Shown here in pieces: positions 2,855-34,544 of a stretch of 45,333 bases of DNA. The DNA is taken from NCBI GenBank assembly GCA_028284955.1, contig JANQQS010000206.1, positions 1 through 45,333 of the forward strand. The letters are read 5' to 3'. Positions within the stretch are counted from its first letter, which is position 1, and each line of letters starts with the position of its first letter. Origin of the DNA: Myxococcota bacterium (lineage in GTDB: Bacteria; Myxococcota_A; Polyangia; Polyangiales; Houyiibacteriaceae). The notes below the pieces were generated by a model. The model was not told where the DNA came from and did no database searches. It saw nothing but the letters and a program-made list of their open reading frames with translations. The position numbers and the translations under genes were made by a program.

Positions 2855-3466
2855 TCACTGCACTGTGCACTGCCCGTCGTCGTTCTCCTGGTCGGGGAAC
2901 CGTTTATCGAACTCGATTCTTACCGGTTCACTGAAGACATCGCTTTGGTATTCGATCTTGAGATCGGTGGACGGCTCAAGGTCGAGTTTGATTGTGCGAT
3001 GGAAGGGTTCCCCCCCGTTGTCGAAAAAGAGAGTTAGCGCTTGGAGCGTTTGGGGCTCGCGGACCGAGTTCTCGTCGGCAAAAAACTTGTCGTCACAGCG
3101 GGCGCGGGGAGTCATGTTGATCTCGACCAGGTTCGGATAATCGCGCGCTAGTTGACCGAAATCCGTTGTCTTGCATGGAACGTTCATCAGGCTCTTGGTG
3201 TAGTCCGTAGCCGGGTTTCCGGGATGCTCTGTCGTTTCTTGCCGTCTCGCGACTCCGATGAGGCTCCAACCGTACGCGCACAGTACGATTCGTTCACTTC
3301 CCACTATCTTATTTACGCGGGTCGTCTGCTTCTCCTCCGTGGCGACATCGGATGGCTGACCGGGGACAGATTCGGTCGACGCGACACAGCCGACCGCCAG
3401 CGCGGCGACCGCGATGGGTAGTAGAGTCTGGCGACTAGGTTTCTTTAGAACTGACTTTCGAAACAT
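2855..3466 (-). CDS. small Cys-containing lipoprotein, paralogue of the 25533-26177 gene
   Basis: A 203-residue predicted lipoprotein. The ATG at 3466 gives a good signal peptide (FRKSVLKKP, hydrophobic LLPIAVAALAVG, Cys27). The mature part starts CVASTES, then has LCAYGWSLIG, a NVPC motif, INMTPRARC and a C-terminal FPDQENDDGQC. The same order of motifs (CVASTEP, LCALGWSIIG, NLPC, INVTPSYRC, YPDQ, final Cys) occurs in the lipoprotein at 25533-26177, so the two are paralogues about 22 kb apart. The three conserved mature cysteines suggest a disulfide-bonded fold. No known family recognised; probably periplasmic or outer-membrane anchored. Confidence 0.7.
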   Translation of the reverse strand: MFRKSVLKKPSRQTLLPIAVAALAVGCVASTESVPGQPSDVATEEKQTTRVNKIVGSERIVLCAYGWSLIGVARRQETTEHPGNPATDYTKSLMNVPCKTTDFGQLARDYPNLVEINMTPRARCDDKFFADENSVREPQTLQALTLFFDNGGEPFHRTIKLDLEPSTDLKIEYQSDVFSEPVRIEFDKRFPDQENDDGQCTVQ

Positions 3467-3821
3467 CGATGTTCTCCTCGGCGCGAGGCGCCTACAACCG
3501 GAATACGACAAGTACGCTCCCGGACCGATGCAAACCACGTACCATGCATCATCACGCAGCGATTCAGGCATCGATCACGGCTGCAGGATCATGTTTCGTG
3601 TGTCGACGTTTTGGCGCAATTCCAAACATATTGGGAGCCCACAACCGCGTCGCGAGAGCCAGGGGCACGGCTACGTACGAAGCCAACCGTTTCTTCGGTT
3701 TGGGGGACATCGGACACCACCGGACAGTGGAATTTTGAGACAGATTGGGGACGCAGAAAGCAATTCACCGGACCTTCGACGACGGACCGACTTTCATGAG
3801 CTTAGTGAATCGGCTGCCGAT
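3467..3821. other. 355-base intergenic region containing a REP-like repeat
   Basis: This lies between the lipoprotein start and the toxin stop. No reading frame is convincing. It holds the solitary repeat described at 3725-3776. Upstream of the lipoprotein ATG on the minus strand there is an A/G-rich stretch (ggagaacatcg) that could act as a ribosome binding site. Confidence 0.4.
3725..3776 (+). repeat. solitary REP-like repeat, partner of 44680-44712
   Basis: The first 13 bases, CAGTGGAATTTTG (3725-3737), are identical to the end of the ~124 bp element at 32917-33040 read on the opposite strand. From 3742 the motif GATTGGGGACG, then GAAAG, AATT and GGACCT, matches the sequence overlapping the stop codon of the transposase gene at 44711 in about 30 of 35 positions. 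Repeats that pair with a REP-associated transposase commonly occur alone in intergenic DNA, which is the setting here. Confidence 0.55.
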
Positions 3822-4981: not shown

Positions 4982-6175
4982 ATGAGCTCATCTGACAAAG
5001 TGCCCGTGACGGTCCTCTGCGGCTTTCTCGGTTCGGGGAAGACCACGTTGCTTCGGCGGTGGCAGGCCGATGAGACGCTTCGCGATGCCGTTATCATCGT
5101 TCACGACCTGAGCGATTTTGGTGTCGATGTTGAACTTCTCTCGAATGAGAACTCGAGGCCACAGCAGGGCCATCTTGTTGACCGCCTCGCAGCCCTGCAC
5201 GGCGCCCATGCTCAAGAGCAGCTTCACGCGTCGGTGGGTCGCGTGTTGAACGAGATCGCGGAGCTCGATCCCGCCCCGCCTCATGTGCTGTGCGAGAGCA
5301 CGGGCGCGGCGCGGCCTTGGCCGTTGATTGCTGCGCTCACCCAGGACGATCGATTCCGCCTGCGCCACTTTATCGTCACCGTGGATGCGCTGAATCTTCA
5401 CCGTGACTTTGCCGATGGCCGTGTCTTCACCGGCGAAGCGAACGCGTCGGGAGACGCCGCTCTCCACTACGCGGCCCAGATCCTCGCTGAGCAGCTCATC
5501 TTCGCTAGCGTGATCATTCTGACGAAGGTCGACACCGTGCCCCGAGCCGTCGTCGATGCCCAAGTCCGTATCTTGAAGAAGCTTCAGCCGCAGGCCACGG
5601 TCGGTCTTTCCACACTGGGAGGGCTTCTTTTGCCTCAGCTTGACGCTACCCCGGCACCCAAGGTCGCCGACCTAGAGACGCGCGCCGAGCAATTCGGCCT
5701 TACCCTTAACGCGCCCACTGCCGATGAGGTTGACGCCATCATCGTCCGTGATCCACGTCCTTTCCATCCTCAGCGATTGTATGATGTGTGTCAGACTCAG
5801 TTGGGCACGGGTGTCTATCGCACCAAGGGTTTTTTGTGGCTTGCCTCGCGCCCCGCCGACGTTCTTCTCTGGCAACAATCGGGTAGCCAGATTGCCTTCG
5901 AAATCACCGGCCTTTGGGCCGCCGAAGCCGTTCACAACCGCTACGGGAAACTGCTTCCCACTGAAGTCGAGTTTCTCAGGGAGCAACTCAGCGCTGCCCA
6001 CCCTGTCTTCGGAGACCGCAATAGTGAGCTCACGCTCATCGGTATGCCGGCCGCTTGCGAAGGCTTCGCCGCTGCTCTGAGAAGCGCATTGTGCACCGAA
6101 GATGAAGTCGCCGCCTGGCAGCGCGGACAAGATTTTCCCGACCCTTGGCCCAAAACACTACGAAAGATCAGCTGA
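4982..6175 (+). CDS. COG0523/CobW-family GTPase (putative metallochaperone)
   Basis: A 397-residue G3E-family GTPase. It shows Walker A GFLGSGKTT (residues 14-22), the conserved ESTG (about 105-108), the guanine-recognition motif TKVD (about 181-184) and a C-terminal CobW-type domain with RTKGFLWLASRP. Members insert or deliver metals (zinc, cobalt, nickel) to client proteins using GTP. Oddly, the CxCC metal-binding motif usual between Walker A and the ESTG motif is absent: the region around residues 58-75 reads RPQQGHLVDRLAALHG with no cysteine. The start at 4982 is an ATG just before the Walker A strand. It converges with the HAD lipoprotein gene. Metal and client are unknown. Confidence 0.88.
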   Translation: MSSSDKVPVTVLCGFLGSGKTTLLRRWQADETLRDAVIIVHDLSDFGVDVELLSNENSRPQQGHLVDRLAALHGAHAQEQLHASVGRVLNEIAELDPAPPHVLCESTGAARPWPLIAALTQDDRFRLRHFIVTVDALNLHRDFADGRVFTGEANASGDAALHYAAQILAEQLIFASVIILTKVDTVPRAVVDAQVRILKKLQPQATVGLSTLGGLLLPQLDATPAPKVADLETRAEQFGLTLNAPTADEVDAIIVRDPRPFHPQRLYDVCQTQLGTGVYRTKGFLWLASRPADVLLWQQSGSQIAFEITGLWAAEAVHNRYGKLLPTEVEFLREQLSAAHPVFGDRNSELTLIGMPAACEGFAAALRSALCTEDEVAAWQRGQDFPDPWPKTLRKIS

Positions 6176-13679: not shown

Positions 13680-13872
13680 GGGCCCCGGTTTAGCACGGAC
13701 CCCATCCCGACTCTTCTTCTGCTCGTCTACGTACTCATTTACGGATCGCTGCGTTCGAAAGTTGTCAGGATAGAGTTGTAGATGCAAATCGCTTGCGTTA
13801 TTGCGCTACGCGAGACACGTTCGCGAGCCATTCAACAAAGGAATCCCGACTCCCGGTGGGGGCGAAGACGAT

Positions 13873-19310: not shown

Positions 19311-19505
19311 CTGCAACCATTTTGCATCCAGCTTGGATGTAAAGCCAGCCAGAATTGGTGCCTGCCACGGTGAGTCAGGCGCAGCTCGATGTGGGGGCCA
19401 AGTCGAAATCCGTCCGGTAGAGATGGTCGATTTCATGGATGCGGATCTTCCGATAGCCGCAAGAATCGGATCGCACCGTCCAAAACGGGCGCTTACGGTC
19501 CGCCG

Positions 19506-25532: not shown

Positions 25533-26177
25533 TCATTTCGGAACTGAAAGAGATGACTTTTCGGTGCGCTTCAGTTGGCAGAATGATCGGTCTTCTGACT
25601 GGTCGGGATAGTAACTGTGAAACCCGTCGATCACTTCAGCGTTCCAAACGTCCGAGCTCTTCACCAACGCCAAAATAGGAGTCAGATTCTTGAATCCTAG
25701 CCCTGTTACACCAACGACCTTGGGGCCATTGTTGGATGTAAGAACCTTGGATTGGATTCCCACTTTGCTCAGCGCCGCAGGCTGGTGTGTCACGTTCGTA
25801 TTCACGACGAACGAGCCGCCACATCGATAACTCGGAGTCACATTGATGAACATGGCGCCTTCGATTCGGCTGACCCTATGTTCGAGTTCACTACATGGCA
25901 AGTTGCGAACGTCAGGGCGGTCTTGTTCGTCATCCGTGCCGAGCATCATCGGATCAAAGGCGCCGATGATGCTCCATCCTAGCGCGCATAGTTTTAGGCC
26001 TCTGACGCTCAAGAGCAGCGCCAGACGGCTTTGCGTCGCCTTCGGCTCGTGGCTGACGGATCTCGCGTCTTCCGTCGATGAAGGCTCGGTCGAGGCAACG
26101 CAGCCGTACAGCGAACCCAACGATACCAAAACTGCTCCCAAGACGTACCGCTTGGCCGCGTGCTGTTTGCAACGCAT
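25533..26177 (-). CDS. small Cys-containing lipoprotein, paralogue of the 2855-3466 gene
   Basis: A 214-residue predicted lipoprotein starting at ATG 26177 after GAGAGGAAG. The signal peptide ends with the lipobox SLYGC (Cys26), then VASTEP as in the paralogue. Conserved landmarks are LCALGWSIIG, NLPC, INVTPSYRC, SNNGPK and YPDQSEDRSFC. The motif order and cysteine spacing match the 2855-3466 protein though overall identity is low. It is the last of four minus-strand genes (AztD-like, TldD, TldE, this), 76 bases after TldE, and may be co-transcribed with them. Function unknown. Confidence 0.72.
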   Translation of the reverse strand: MRCKQHAAKRYVLGAVLVSLGSLYGCVASTEPSSTEDARSVSHEPKATQSRLALLLSVRGLKLCALGWSIIGAFDPMMLGTDDEQDRPDVRNLPCSELEHRVSRIEGAMFINVTPSYRCGGSFVVNTNVTHQPAALSKVGIQSKVLTSNNGPKVVGVTGLGFKNLTPILALVKSSDVWNAEVIDGFHSYYPDQSEDRSFCQLKRTEKSSLSVPK

Positions 26178-26253: not shown

Positions 26254-27576
26254 CTATGCACCGCTGAACTGCACGTCTTCGAAGATGAGTGTGGGCGCTC
26301 GTGTCGGACCGTAGGGCCAGGGGTCGTTGCCCAGGGCAACGAGCTTCCCGAATAGCTTAAGCAGATTGCCGGTGACGTTCATTTCGCCGACCGGCTTTGT
26401 CACTTCGCCTTGTTCGACGAGGTGACCGCGGACGCCGAAGGAGAAGTCGCCTGTTGTGGCGTCGGCGTTGCCTCCAAGCCACGAGCTGACGATGACCCCG
26501 CTGCCTGCGTCGTTCACGAGCTGCTCATAGGAGCGATTGCCGATGGGAAGCACCCAGTTCGACCGCGCGCCCGTGGTCGGGGCCATGTCGATCTTCTTCC
26601 CGTAGTAGGTGTCTACGTAGATGTTGGTGAGCACGCCCTTGTCGATGATCGGAAGACTCCGCGCGCTGATTCCTTCGTCGTCGAAATGGCGTGATCCGCT
26701 ACCGCCGCGTAGGAGTGGCTCATCGGTGATCGATAGCTTCTTTGAGACTACGGCTTTGCCCATTGCGTTCTTCCAGAAACTCCGGTCCTGGCTGAAGTGG
26801 TACGCAGACGCGGCGCCAAGCAGCTGGGACAACAAACGACCTGCAGCCCGTGCTTCGACGATCATGGTTGCGCGTTTGGTGGGTCCTTTGATGGCGCCGA
26901 GTCGTCGCGTAGCTTCCCGGAGGGCCAACTTCCCTAGCGCTTGCCGGTTCGGTACGTGTTCAAAACCCGTTCCGCCGGCGTAGTAGTAACCCTCTGGGCG
27001 CTTGCCGCCTTCGCCTCTAAGAGTGACTTCGCCTCCCATCCAAAGAGAGGTTGCGTCGCGCGTTCCCGAAAAGCCGTTGGAGCTCGCTGCGGCCATACGG
27101 CTTGCGCTGTCGTAAACACCAACCGTGCTTGAGATGATCTTGTCGCTACCGCGTGTCGCGCGGTATAACTCTCGGCACCAAGCGAGGCGGTCATTGGGTG
27201 AGATGCGCGAGACTTTCTCGTCGACGATGCCTAAGTTCACGCGGGGGCGATCCTTGAACAAGGCAGCGTCGGGAATCGTCCGATAGGGGTCCTTTTCGAT
27301 GTGCCTCGTCAAGGCCACCGCCTGCGCGATGAAGGAGCGAAGGGAGACAGGCCGTAGGTCCGTGGTCTCGTGGGTCGAGTAGCGACCGCTTACGTAGAGG
27401 CGGACCGAGAGCTTCTGCGCGGTGCTCTCCTGAACCTTCTCAAGCTTGCCGTCTCGATATTCCGTATCCACCGAGCGCTGTTGTTTCGCGACCGCCCACG
27501 CGTCGGCCGCTCCCGCCTTCTTGGACAGCTCCACCGCGTGTTCGGCGCGCTTGAGCAGGGTCGCTTTGTCAGGCAT
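26254..27576 (-). CDS. TldE/PmbA-family protein
   Basis: A 440-residue TldE/PmbA homologue starting PDKATLLKRAEHAVELSKKA (ATG 27576), which overlaps the TldD stop by 8 bases, so translation is probably coupled. It has the RDGKLEKVQESTAQKLSVRLY strand pair, SSNGFSG, EARAAGRLLSQLLGAASAY and the C-terminal GVRGHLVEQGEVTKPVGEMN typical of the family. As expected for TldE it lacks the HExxxH zinc site and should form a heterodimer with TldD that degrades unfolded or modified peptides. No signal peptide is visible, in contrast to its TldD partner. Confidence 0.93.
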   Translation of the reverse strand: MPDKATLLKRAEHAVELSKKAGAADAWAVAKQQRSVDTEYRDGKLEKVQESTAQKLSVRLYVSGRYSTHETTDLRPVSLRSFIAQAVALTRHIEKDPYRTIPDAALFKDRPRVNLGIVDEKVSRISPNDRLAWCRELYRATRGSDKIISSTVGVYDSASRMAAASSNGFSGTRDATSLWMGGEVTLRGEGGKRPEGYYYAGGTGFEHVPNRQALGKLALREATRRLGAIKGPTKRATMIVEARAAGRLLSQLLGAASAYHFSQDRSFWKNAMGKAVVSKKLSITDEPLLRGGSGSRHFDDEGISARSLPIIDKGVLTNIYVDTYYGKKIDMAPTTGARSNWVLPIGNRSYEQLVNDAGSGVIVSSWLGGNADATTGDFSFGVRGHLVEQGEVTKPVGEMNVTGNLLKLFGKLVALGNDPWPYGPTRAPTLIFEDVQFSGA

Positions 27577-29131
27577 CTTCGCCTCCGACAGTGAGCGCCG
27601 AGACAAGAACTGTCGGGATGCCTTGGGAAACCGGGACGCTTTGGCCGTTTTTTCCGCAAGTCCAGCCGCCAGTGTCGAGGTGACCATCGGCCGCTGCCAT
27701 CGTGATCTTGCGCAAGGTCTCGGGTCCGTTGCCGATGATGTTGATGTCTTTGATCGGCTCCGTCACTTTGCCATCTTCGATTCGGTAGCCGTTCTTGATG
27801 TAGAAGGTGTAGTCGCCGGCGCCGATCTGCACCTGACCATTCAGAAAGGTCTCCGCAAGGATTCCGTTTTTCGCGCCCGCAATGATCTCCTCCCGACTGT
27901 GCGGCCCGTCCTCCATGAAGGTGCAGCGCATGCGCGGCATCGGCGAATGCCGAAAGGATTGACGGCGCCCTGAGCCAGTCGGGTTTGCCCGGTACTGCTT
28001 GGCGCTAATCTCATCGTGCATGTACGTGCGGAGATATCCCTTGTCGACGAGTACCGTCCGCTGCGCCGGATTGCCTTCGTCATCGATGTTGATGGCGCCA
28101 CGTTCGTATTCCAGCGTTCCATCATCGACGATGGTGACGAACTCTTCGGCGACCTTCTTGCCCATCATCTCCGAATAGATGCTCACGCCTTTGCGGTTGA
28201 AGTCGGCTTCCATGCCGTGGCCGATCGCTTCGTGCAGTAAGATGCCGCTGGGTCCTGCCGCCAAGACTACCGGCATCTCTCCGGCAGGTGGACGACCTGC
28301 CTCGAAGAGAATCATCGTGCGGTCCACGGCCTGCTTGGTCACGAGCTCGAGTTGCGCTTCGGTAAAGAACTCAAGACCTCGGCGGCCCGCAATGTTGGCG
28401 CTGTTCGACTGAGTTTTGCCTCCCTTTTCCGCCGTTACGGTCACGTACATGCGAGCCATCGGACGTTCGTCGTACACAACCGTGCCGTTCAAGGTCGCGA
28501 TCATCACGCGCGATTCACCATCCGACCAACGAATCTCTACTTTCTTGACCGCGGGATCTCGACGATGCGCGAGTTCAGCGGCTCGTCGAATGATCGGCAG
28601 CTTCTTGTCGATGCCGACATCGCGCCACGGAACCTTGGTGGAGTAGAATCCTTTTCTCAATCCCGTGTGGCGGATCTGCTGCGGCCCCACCGCAGCCTTA
28701 CCGCGTGCAATTAGGGCAGCGGTCTGCGCTGCATCGCGCATCGCCTTTTCGGTGAGCTCCTCCGTGTAGGCGTAGCCCGTTTGGTCACCCACCACACAAC
28801 GAAGGCCGACTCCCAGGTCGATGGATGTGCTCGCTTGCGACACGATGCCGTCTTGGTAGACAAGAGAGCTCGACAGGCTGTGCTGAAAGTAGAGGTCTGC
28901 CTGGTCCGCGCCGCGGGAACTCAGCGCCGCGAGGGTTCGCCGAATGATTCCGTCATCGATGCCGAAGACGTCTGCGAAGGGGTTGTGCCCCGCGTTCGAC
29001 TCGCTGGGCATCGTACCCCCGGCGGCCGACCTCGAAGCACCGCAAGCCTCCAGAAACGTTGGCATACTAAGAGCGGCCGTGGTGGCGGTGGCGTCTCGGA
29101 TGAACTTTCGTCGCGTGATGTCTGCGGACAT
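27569..29131 (-). CDS. TldD-family zinc metalloprotease with Tat lipoprotein signal
   Basis: A 520-residue TldD homologue. The zinc site HEAIGHGMEAD (His301, Glu302, His306) and the C-terminal cysteine ligand motif CGKNGQ (Cys492) are both present, as is SIDLGVGLRCVVGDQTGYAY. Unusually, the N-terminus carries a twin-arginine motif TRRKFIRDA, a hydrophobic stretch and a lipobox-like LEAC (Cys30), so export as a folded, possibly lipid-anchored enzyme is predicted; classical TldD is cytoplasmic. Start ATG 29131 has GGAGGAG at 7 bases. The tldE-like gene overlaps its 3' end. Upstream are three 15-bp tandem repeats and a strong hairpin. Substrate unknown. Confidence 0.94.
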   Translation of the reverse strand: MSADITRRKFIRDATATTAALSMPTFLEACGASRSAAGGTMPSESNAGHNPFADVFGIDDGIIRRTLAALSSRGADQADLYFQHSLSSSLVYQDGIVSQASTSIDLGVGLRCVVGDQTGYAYTEELTEKAMRDAAQTAALIARGKAAVGPQQIRHTGLRKGFYSTKVPWRDVGIDKKLPIIRRAAELAHRRDPAVKKVEIRWSDGESRVMIATLNGTVVYDERPMARMYVTVTAEKGGKTQSNSANIAGRRGLEFFTEAQLELVTKQAVDRTMILFEAGRPPAGEMPVVLAAGPSGILLHEAIGHGMEADFNRKGVSIYSEMMGKKVAEEFVTIVDDGTLEYERGAINIDDEGNPAQRTVLVDKGYLRTYMHDEISAKQYRANPTGSGRRQSFRHSPMPRMRCTFMEDGPHSREEIIAGAKNGILAETFLNGQVQIGAGDYTFYIKNGYRIEDGKVTEPIKDINIIGNGPETLRKITMAAADGHLDTGGWTCGKNGQSVPVSQGIPTVLVSALTVGGEDA

Positions 29132-29148
29132 GTGACTGCTCCTCCTAT

Positions 29149-29193
29149 CTATTCACCGAAGGTCTATTCACCGAAGGCCTATCCACGGGAAGG
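29149..29193 (-). repeat. 15-bp tandem repeat upstream of tldD
   Basis: Three head-to-tail units: CTATTCACCGAAGGT (29149-29163), CTATTCACCGAAGGC (29164-29178) and CTATCCACGGGAAGG (29179-29193). On the transcribed strand they lie immediately 5' of the tldD ribosome binding site, so they are in the leader of the mRNA if it starts further upstream. Such repeats can vary in number by slippage. Confidence 0.8.
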
Positions 29194-29212
29194 CTAGCCC
29201 AAGCTTGCCTCG

Positions 29213-29249
29213 CGAGGGAGGGGGCACGGTCTTCCTGTCCCCTCCCTCG
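29213..29249 (-). terminator. GC-rich hairpin after the AztD-like gene
   Basis: CGAGGGAGGGG (29213-29223) and CCCCTCCCTCG (29239-29249) are perfectly complementary with a 15-base loop. It begins 15 bases after the minus-strand stop at 29265. It is a likely 3' end or attenuator for the AztD-like gene, with no T tract. It would partly uncouple tldD from the gene upstream. Confidence 0.6.
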
Positions 29250-29264
29250 ATGTCTGTGGTCGCC

Positions 29265-30692
29265 TTAGTTGTGGCCCAGGACGACCCCGTCAGGAGGAGC
29301 GCCGACGTGAGCGATGGATGCCGGCGTACCAGGCAGCGTGACCGTGCCGGCAATTTCCCAGCTCTCCGCATCGATGACGACCAGTTCCGTCGAGCCCGGA
29401 GTCGCGACCGAGATTCGTCCGCCACCCACCGTCAACAGAAAGCGATCTGCCGCCGTCGCGACATCCATGGCGTCTCCCTCGGGGGCGAGCGTCGTCGGCG
29501 TGAGGCGATAGAGCTTTCCGTTGGAGCCCATGACCACCACGCGGGTGTCGGTTCCATCGCTGAGGAAAGCGAATCCGGCGCCATTGGCGGCATCAGGCAG
29601 AAGCTGCACGTTCATGGTTTTCGCGGACGGGTCGACCACACCAAGTGCTGGTCCAAAATCGGTGACGAATACGCTTGCATCGGGGTGTGCCAGAACAGTG
29701 TAGGCTCTGGCCAGCGATCCGGCCGGAGGAGCAATCATCTCGCCGGAAAAATCGCTTTCCCCGTAGGTCAAGAGCAACACCCCTTCGTCGCAGCCAAAGG
29801 CCACGTGGTCGCCGTGCACCGCTTCGCCGTGCAGTTTGGTGCACCCGTCGAAGCTCTGCGTTTCGTCGTTGGGATTGTCGAGCGTACGGATGCTGACGCC
29901 CGTGGGGATGCCTCCGAGCCAGCCCTCTTGCTGCTCTTCGTCGGTGGCCATGCGCGAGCTCCGGGTGATGATCACGTGTCCGTGGGTTGGCAGCGCGACA
30001 CCGTGATGGGGCGGTGTGGAGAACACCCAGGTCGGCTCCGTTATGATCCCGGTGATGAGCGACGACTCGGGCAGGAGTCCGGCCTTGGCCTCGCCATCGA
30101 AGTAGAATGCGAATATTCCGTCGTGGTGGACTACATGGGTGGGTTGAGGTCCGGGAAACGCGCGATCCAAAAGCTTTGGCGCGTCGGTATCAAGATGGAA
30201 ATGGTCGTCGTGCGGCTCGTAAACGATGCCGCCATCGATCACTTCGAAGCCTCCGTCATCAAAGTAGTGCGATAGCCAAACAAATCTGCCGCTCGGGTCG
30301 TTGGTGAGGAAGGAGCTGGCGTAGGCGACATCAATGGTCTCGATGACCGTGCGCTCGTCAAGATCGACGACGTAGACCTTCGCCTCCTCGGCATCGCTCA
30401 CCAGCAAGCGGCCGCTCGGCAGGACGACGGGCGACTCTGAAGGTGTTTCCTCATTGGCGTTTGTGGTGTCGGGGTTGTCGGTGCCAGGATTGTCGGTGCC
30501 GGGCAGGACTGGATCGCTGGTTTGCGAGCGATCCCCTTCCATTGGGGTTGCCTGGGTGGGGCCGTCGTTCGAGCAACCTGCGACGGTTGCGAATGCTGCG
30601 CTGGCCACCAAAGCAATGAGCCATGGTTGTCTTCCGTTTTGCGAAAAATACAGAAGTCGTCGCGATTGTTTGAGTTGTTGGTGACGGGTCAT
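29265..30692 (-). CDS. AztD-like beta-propeller lipoprotein (putative periplasmic metallochaperone)
   Basis: A 475-residue predicted lipoprotein with a good start (GAGGGAGGA before ATG 30692), lipobox TVAGC (Cys40) and a D/N/P/T-rich linker. The propeller begins LPSGRLLVSDAEEAKVYVVD. Histidine-rich sites HDDHFH (161-166) and THVVHH (185-190) plus PPHHGVALPTHGHVIIT are arranged as in AztD, the periplasmic zinc chaperone that hands zinc to the AztC binding protein. No aztABC transporter genes are visible in this window. Metal binding by these histidines is inferred from the family. It lies upstream of the exported TldD, a zinc enzyme, on the same strand. Confidence 0.75.
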   Translation of the reverse strand: MTRHQQLKQSRRLLYFSQNGRQPWLIALVASAAFATVAGCSNDGPTQATPMEGDRSQTSDPVLPGTDNPGTDNPDTTNANEETPSESPVVLPSGRLLVSDAEEAKVYVVDLDERTVIETIDVAYASSFLTNDPSGRFVWLSHYFDDGGFEVIDGGIVYEPHDDHFHLDTDAPKLLDRAFPGPQPTHVVHHDGIFAFYFDGEAKAGLLPESSLITGIITEPTWVFSTPPHHGVALPTHGHVIITRSSRMATDEEQQEGWLGGIPTGVSIRTLDNPNDETQSFDGCTKLHGEAVHGDHVAFGCDEGVLLLTYGESDFSGEMIAPPAGSLARAYTVLAHPDASVFVTDFGPALGVVDPSAKTMNVQLLPDAANGAGFAFLSDGTDTRVVVMGSNGKLYRLTPTTLAPEGDAMDVATAADRFLLTVGGGRISVATPGSTELVVIDAESWEIAGTVTLPGTPASIAHVGAPPDGVVLGHN

Positions 30693-30769: not shown

Positions 30770-30804
30770 AACTCTCATTTGCAAGTTGCTTGCAAATGAG
30801 AGTT
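30770..30804. promoter_or_regulatory. 35-base palindrome in the divergent intergenic region
   Basis: AACTCTCATTTGCAAG (30770-30785) and CTTGCAAATGAGAGTT (30789-30804) are perfect complements around TTG. It lies 78 bases upstream of the AztD-like start and 177 bases before the LysR start. It could be an operator with a long dyad, a transcript hairpin or a barrier between the divergent units; perfect arms of this length suggest a selected or recently formed structure. Confidence 0.6.
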
Positions 30805-33806: not shown

Positions 33807-34286
33807 TCAGAGCTTGGTGGGATTGGGGGCGTCACCGTATGTCTCGACCGGGTCGAAAGTCTTGGCCTTCTCCTCGAACGTAAGCTTGACCGGGCCGTCA
33901 GCTTTGCCGAGAGGAACGGAGCGGTAGAAGCATGAGCGATAACCTACGTGGCAGCTCGCATCTCCCACCACCTCCACTTGGAGCCACAACGCATCTTGGT
34001 CGTCGTCGACTCGGAGTTCGACCACTTTCTGCACGAGGCCACTCGTGGCGCCTTTCCGCCACAAGACTTGGCGGCTGCGGCTGTAGTAATGAGCCTCCCC
34101 GCTCTCGATGGTCTTCGCCAGCGCCTCCCGGTTCATGTAGCCGAGCATAAGCACCATGCCGTCTCGAGTGGCGGAAGTCACCACCGGAATGAGCCCGTCG
34201 GCATTAAACTTCGGGGCCAGCTCGTTTCCCTCTTCAACCTGCTCGACGGAACGCCGAGCGGCGAACAGCGGGTTGTCGTCAGCCAT
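33807..34286 (-). CDS. hisI: phosphoribosyl-AMP cyclohydrolase
   Basis: A 159-residue HisI, third step of histidine synthesis: it opens the adenine ring of phosphoribosyl-AMP. Start ATG 34286 follows GGAGGAG by 7 bases. Family motifs: VLMLGYMNREALAKT, ESGEAHYYSRSRQVLWRKG, the magnesium aspartates in VDDDQDALW and the zinc cysteines in GDASCHVGYRSCFYR (Cys112 and Cys119). It lacks the HisE half found in some fusions. No other histidine gene is in the window, so the pathway is scattered in this genome. Confidence 0.96.
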   Translation of the reverse strand: MADDNPLFAARRSVEQVEEGNELAPKFNADGLIPVVTSATRDGMVLMLGYMNREALAKTIESGEAHYYSRSRQVLWRKGATSGLVQKVVELRVDDDQDALWLQVEVVGDASCHVGYRSCFYRSVPLGKADGPVKLTFEEKAKTFDPVETYGDAPNPTKL

Positions 34287-34544
34287 GCAGTACTCCTCCG
34301 CTCGTGGGTGCTTCCTCTTGGTAGCGTCCCGGAAGCCTAGCGTATGTGGACCACATGCAAGCAAATTGCAAAAGCAAAAATTTTACGGTCGGGTTGGGTA
34401 CGTCTACGCGGGATGGACACGGCGAACGCCGGCTCCTCGGAACGCCTCGTTGAGTGAGCGTTCCGGGTGGAGTAGTGTGGCGTGGTTTGGAAAACCTAGC
34501 GCAGGCTGTTTTTACGAAGGCCTCAGAACGACGGAGCCAGCACT

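Follow-up and report, generated by a model that had tools for sequence, protein, structure and literature searches.

A Tat-signal-bearing TldD and its signal-less TldE partner in Myxococcota: a putative envelope peptidase associated with zinc limitation

The stretch of DNA analysed here (the window, 45,333 nucleotides of a myxococcotal genome) encodes a TldD protein with a Tat signal and, overlapping it, a TldE protein without one. On balance, we consider this pair to be a second TldD/TldE that resides in the cell envelope, with TldD exported by Tat and TldE hitchhiking on it, and that in the family of the window genome belongs to a zinc-limitation regulon. Work on TldD/TldE has treated it as an enzyme of the cytoplasm that acts on modified peptides, either maturing or clearing them, and the Escherichia coli pair is cytoplasmic.

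A TldD with an export signal and its distribution

Four genes lie one after another on the minus strand: an aztD-like gene for a beta-propeller lipoprotein (29265..30692, lipobox TVAGC), tldD (27569..29131), tldE (26254..27576) and a gene for a small lipoprotein (25533..26177, lipobox SLYGC). A sequence-only reading had described this same-strand array at 26254-30692; all four genes are there, the small lipoprotein falling outside that interval. The latter has a paralogue at 2855-3571 (28 % identity), and the two belong to no known family.

The 520-aa TldD consists of a Tat signal (RRKFIR), a lipobox-like Cys30, a linker and a full TldD moiety with Pfam PmbA_TldD domains 1-3. Its metal ligands, as given in PMC5810440, are intact and comprise the HEAIGH version of the HExxxH motif (28217..28234, minus strand) and the third ligand, a Cys in TCGKNGQ close to the C-terminus. 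The best-scoring TldD structure by sequence is that of the E. coli protein (5nj5, E 1e-106), with which the window protein shares the three domains, the HExxxH and Cys ligands and the inactive TldE partner; at 399 of the 513 bits required by the NCBIfam TldD equivalog model, it falls within the wider family but outside the equivalogs of E. coli TldD. The two E. coli genes are unlinked, whereas those in the window overlap and tldD encodes a Tat signal with a lipobox. The N-terminus (MSADITRRKFIRDATATTAALSMPTFLEAC; codons 1-30, up to and including Cys30, at 29042..29131 on the minus strand) displays the twin-arginine motif and the hydrophobic stretch of a Tat substrate, and the genome encodes one TatC. 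Thus, the Tat signal and the lipobox-like Cys proposed from the sequence are both present, the context of the Cys being non-canonical: LEAC, with Glu at -2, against the lipobox pattern [LVI][ASTVI][GAS]C and the LAGC, LLGC or LAAC of most orthologues. From these features TldD looks Tat-exported, and it is probably lipidated at Cys30.

We surveyed 85 TldDs from Myxococcota, unplaced MAGs and one Parabacteroides, calling Tat signals with an automatic regular expression and correcting the calls by eye, which removed six false positives and restored L122, a false negative. A Tat signal was found in 44 of the 85 proteins, 43 of which have a Cys at the lipobox position, and each of the 44 is adjoined by a signal-less TldE, a few of these being cut by contig ends. 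The window-type TldD (47-71 % identity, or the window protein itself) is present in 17 of the 144 genomes of the order, 16 of which also keep a cytoplasmic-type TldD; the window genome has a separate normal TldD/TldE pair on contig C5. The named relatives belong to Sandaracinaceae, other Myxococcota and unplaced MAGs, and the wider TldD clade, many members of which are without a signal, is represented in 124 of the 377 genomes of the phylum. In phylogenetic trees, the exported-type TldD and TldE form matching clades (100/100 and 100/99) that exclude the cytoplasmic pair.

A search for the gene order in related genomes showed that the tldD-tldE arrangement is conserved well beyond the window genome; the other half of the proposed array did not hold up, because in a comparison with 37 other tldDE loci neither an aztD-like gene nor a small lipoprotein gene adjoined any of them. 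A four-gene operon was rejected by this neighbourhood comparison, and no further conserved neighbours of tldDE were found beyond close genera, with ORF picking that was crude.

The TldE partner and its predicted co-export

The 440-aa TldE contains the same domains as TldD, lacks HExxxH and is encoded in a pair with TldD, which identifies it as TldE/PmbA; its closest solved relative is the TldE of Bacteroides thetaiotaomicron, 1vpb. The proposed start of tldE within the tldD stop is borne out by an 8-bp overlap between the tldE ATG and the tldD stop (ATGCCTGA). A signal on TldE was found in none of the genomes examined, and a search for a hidden signal encoded from an upstream start likewise yielded none. 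Among 25 tldD-tldE pairs measured, a possible tldE start is located between -11 and +12 bp from the tldD stop, and 15-23 residues (35 in one case) precede the TldE core. The idea that such a TldE must ride with TldD gains support from the sequences, the arrangement being found well outside the window genome.

Partner-dependent composition provides an indirect indication. Among 74 TldEs, those with a signal-bearing partner are less acidic than those without (charge of -0.8 vs -9.6) and contain fewer Cys (1.4 vs 2.8). In a phylogenetic regression, a signal-bearing partner is associated with a TldE charge higher by 7.3 (p=0.013) and 1.5 fewer Cys (p=0.004), and the charge of TldD shifts in the same direction with the signal (p 0.013); these effects are modest and involve few independent signal changes, and with four independent pairs a sign test is powerless. 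A shift of this kind is predicted by co-export and not by a cytoplasmic TldE, and therefore speaks for passage of TldE through Tat together with TldD. Tat hitchhiking is established for HybOC and PaoABC (PMC4273604), in which, as in the TldD/TldE pair, one subunit bears the signal and its partner does not; those are redox enzymes, whereas TldD/TldE is a peptidase whose co-export we infer from sequence.

Alternatively, TldD could be exported alone, as a homodimer, with TldE staying in the cytoplasm and perhaps pairing with another TldD. The uniform lack of a TldE signal is compatible with this scenario, and an active TldD homodimer has been reported from Sulfolobus (Hu et al. 2012, as cited in PMC5810440). 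However, the TldEs of signal-bearing pairs form a clade of their own that tracks the matching TldD, the order and overlap of the two genes are conserved, a separate cytoplasmic pair is kept and TldE composition shifts with the TldD signal. Moreover, the activity of E. coli TldD, the metal of which can be zinc or iron, requires TldE (PMC5810440). We therefore regard a TldE left behind in the cytoplasm as unlikely.

A candidate Zur-like operator and a probable zinc-limitation neighbourhood

A perfect inverted repeat of 27 bp (12-3-12; 30774..30800), unique in the genome, separates aztD from a divergent lysR gene and is a candidate operator (core 30780-30794, TGCAAGTTGCTTGCA). The core TGCAA-N5-TTGCA has nine exact copies in 6.07 Mb, compared with four for the reversed control; five of the nine are in an 11-kb cluster (C5:3044-13989) and three in the window. 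The cluster encodes two COG0523 GTPases (one of them a ZigA over the cut-off), DUF1826, MerC, GTP cyclohydrolase I, a second AztD copy, a TonB receptor, a homologue of metal-independent carbonic anhydrase and a Fur-family protein that is Zur-like only distantly (2o03, E 9e-5). The candidate operator is shared by zinc-starvation genes (ZigA, hisI, DUF1826, MerC), and the cluster includes a Fur-family regulator gene, as in a Zur regulon, with binding to the operator being predicted. The resemblance to described Zur/COG0523 zinc-limitation regulons (PMC2770081) includes the ZigA-type GTPases, a hisI paralogue, DUF1826, the outer-membrane receptor and the Fur-family gene; the operator, unlike in those regulons, was derived from the window genome. 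Paralogues of hisI are a known type of Zur-regulated gene (PMC2770081), and the hisI gene of the window (phosphoribosyl-AMP cyclohydrolase; 33807..34286, minus strand) has an exact operator at 34356-34370. A COG0523/cobW-family GTPase is also encoded in the window (4982..6175, plus strand). Together with the hisI site, Zur-like sites (exact or with one mismatch) at 13783-13797, 19312-19326 and 617-631 lie near the genes for a sulfatase lipoprotein, a PLP decarboxylase and hisI.

In other genomes, a Zur-like site with at most one mismatch precedes 11 of 16 AztD-like genes and 1 of 25 exported tldD genes, so that zinc control of tldDE is lineage-specific at best. The single tldD is that of the nearest relative, G089, in which the operator (one mismatch) is located some 45 bp upstream of the tldD start codon. 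The contig that carries tldDE in G089 holds three of the seven exact operators of that genome and two COG0523 genes, one of which is 80 % identical to ZigA of the window genome, and a homologue of the metal-independent (iota) carbonic anhydrase (7c5x, E 1e-24) is encoded directly upstream of tldD. Accordingly, tldDE is found in a zinc-limitation neighbourhood in both sampled carrier genomes of the window genome's family and not at the other loci checked. The operators of G089 speak against an interpretation of tldDE as free of any zinc link. The link appears to exist at the level of regulation, with Zur binding and a zinc response being predicted from the sites. Of the original zinc idea, it is this regulatory form that survives, in the Zur-like operators at aztD and at G089 tldDE, and not a TldD fed by AztD.

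Two further observations concern the same neighbourhoods. The sulfatase lipoprotein of the window has a homologue (36 %) encoded near tldDE in G089, with an operator between the homologue and a subtilase lipoprotein gene. The iota carbonic anhydrase homologues of the zinc-limitation clusters, at 6384-6827 of L029 (G000:C5) and 9005-9466 of L122, are 62 % identical.

A more far-reaching possibility is that, in the family of the window genome, exported TldD/TldE is a zinc-starvation effector which, together with Zur-controlled surface proteins (AztD here, the subtilase lipoprotein in G089), would digest zinc-holding proteins or peptides at the surface, with AztD catching the freed zinc for uptake. 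We hold this to be distinctly improbable.

Gain and loss of the signal

On the TldD tree of the larger set, the signal label requires six changes, at least four of which are forced by supported branches; judging from this tree, the Tat signal is one that has been gained or lost several times. In each of three genomes, a Tat-signal TldD coexists with a signal-less TldD from its own clade (L210/L230 in G606, L211/L231 in G518 and L212/L237 in G450). Each of these TldDs adjoins its own TldE, making them natural pairs for studying address switching.

The N-terminal extension could also be non-functional and the pair an ordinary cytoplasmic TldD/TldE duplicate, given that some members of the clade keep the pair without a signal and that LEAC is atypical. 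Yet the twin arginines, the hydrophobic stretch and the Cys are kept in orthologues at 50-70 % identity across families, and the signal-less members of the clade show no such signal whatsoever, so we give this explanation little credence.

A distant counterpart of the Tat-signal pair (about 40 % identity) occurs in Bacteroidota. A Parabacteroides distasonis plasmid encodes WP_010183233.1/WP_211744342.1, annotated just as TldD-related, in which TldD has a Tat signal with an LGSC lipobox and the signal-less TldE starts 1 bp after TldD. In Parabacteroides, an anaerobic sulfatase-maturation gene lies directly 5' of the exported tldD (L154 3758-4999). In the open-access papers searched, we found nothing relevant on TldD in connection with Tat, signal peptides, Bacteroides or BT3648/9, nor any exported peptidase as a zinc-limitation regulon member.

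The AztD-like lipoprotein

The AztD-like protein matches the NCBIfam AztD model with an E value of 2e-41, yet its 142 bits fall short of the 400-bit cut-off, and the only matches in a PDB sequence search are the AztD structures 6cmk and 6ck1. Among the zinc residues compared (PdAztD H124, H167 and H218; H99, H102, D104 and H408), five His are kept, namely those of site 1 and two of site 2 (H161 and H164 here); Asp104 is replaced by H166, and a His close to the C-terminus is present but not aligned. The protein shares the propeller family and these His with AztD of AztABCD; it differs in the score, the Asp replacement and its lipoprotein nature, and the neighbours of its gene are lysR and tldD, with no adjoining AztC or transporter gene that would make an aztABCD operon. 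Between aztD and tldD, on the minus strand, a strong GC hairpin (29213..29249; z -3.05 for the 141-nt stretch), which lacks a T run, is a possible terminator or attenuator of the aztD transcript. AztD-like genes are present in 21 of the 144 genomes of the order and have no TldD neighbour at the other loci inspected; conversely, no AztD was found in 13 genomes with a window-type TldD (two of which, L093 and L095, are without a Tat signal).

The sequence-only reading had suggested that the AztD-like protein could supply zinc to exported TldD. Tat cargo folds before export (PMC4273604), and because TldD would presumably be metal-loaded by then and the aztD-tldDE link is not conserved, zinc supply by AztD outside the cytoplasm is unlikely. 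A single envelope system of AztD, exported TldD/TldE and the small lipoprotein, in which AztD metallates TldD, has the gene order in the window and the retained zinc ligands in its favour, but is highly improbable given the lack of AztD and small-lipoprotein neighbours at the other tldDE loci compared, the 13 AztD-less genomes, the operator and hairpin that bracket aztD and the export of Tat cargo in a folded state. The most plausible reading of the AztD-like protein is that of a lipoprotein that scavenges zinc and is under separate regulation.

Proposed mechanism and implications

We propose that TldD and TldE, translated from overlapping genes, would assemble in the cytoplasm, where TldD would take up its metal, and that the folded heterodimer would leave by Tat through the TldD signal alone. 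Lipidation of TldD at Cys30 would then probably keep the enzyme periplasmic or attached to the outer membrane, and there it would be expected to shorten small or unfolded peptides starting at their N-terminus, like E. coli TldD/TldE inside the cell. In the family of the window genome, the pair would have been recruited to a Zur-type zinc-limitation regulon, in which the AztD-like lipoprotein would be a zinc scavenger and not the zinc source of the peptidase. Under zinc limitation, exported TldD/TldE may either recover zinc from proteins or merely replace another peptidase.

If this interpretation is correct, the known Tat hitchhikers, most of them redox enzymes, would be joined by a peptidase in a conserved export form whose address is carried by a single subunit. 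TldD/TldE would gain a role outside the cytoplasm, with co-export of the partner being directly testable, and a place in a zinc-limitation regulon would be yet another role, and not an expected one.
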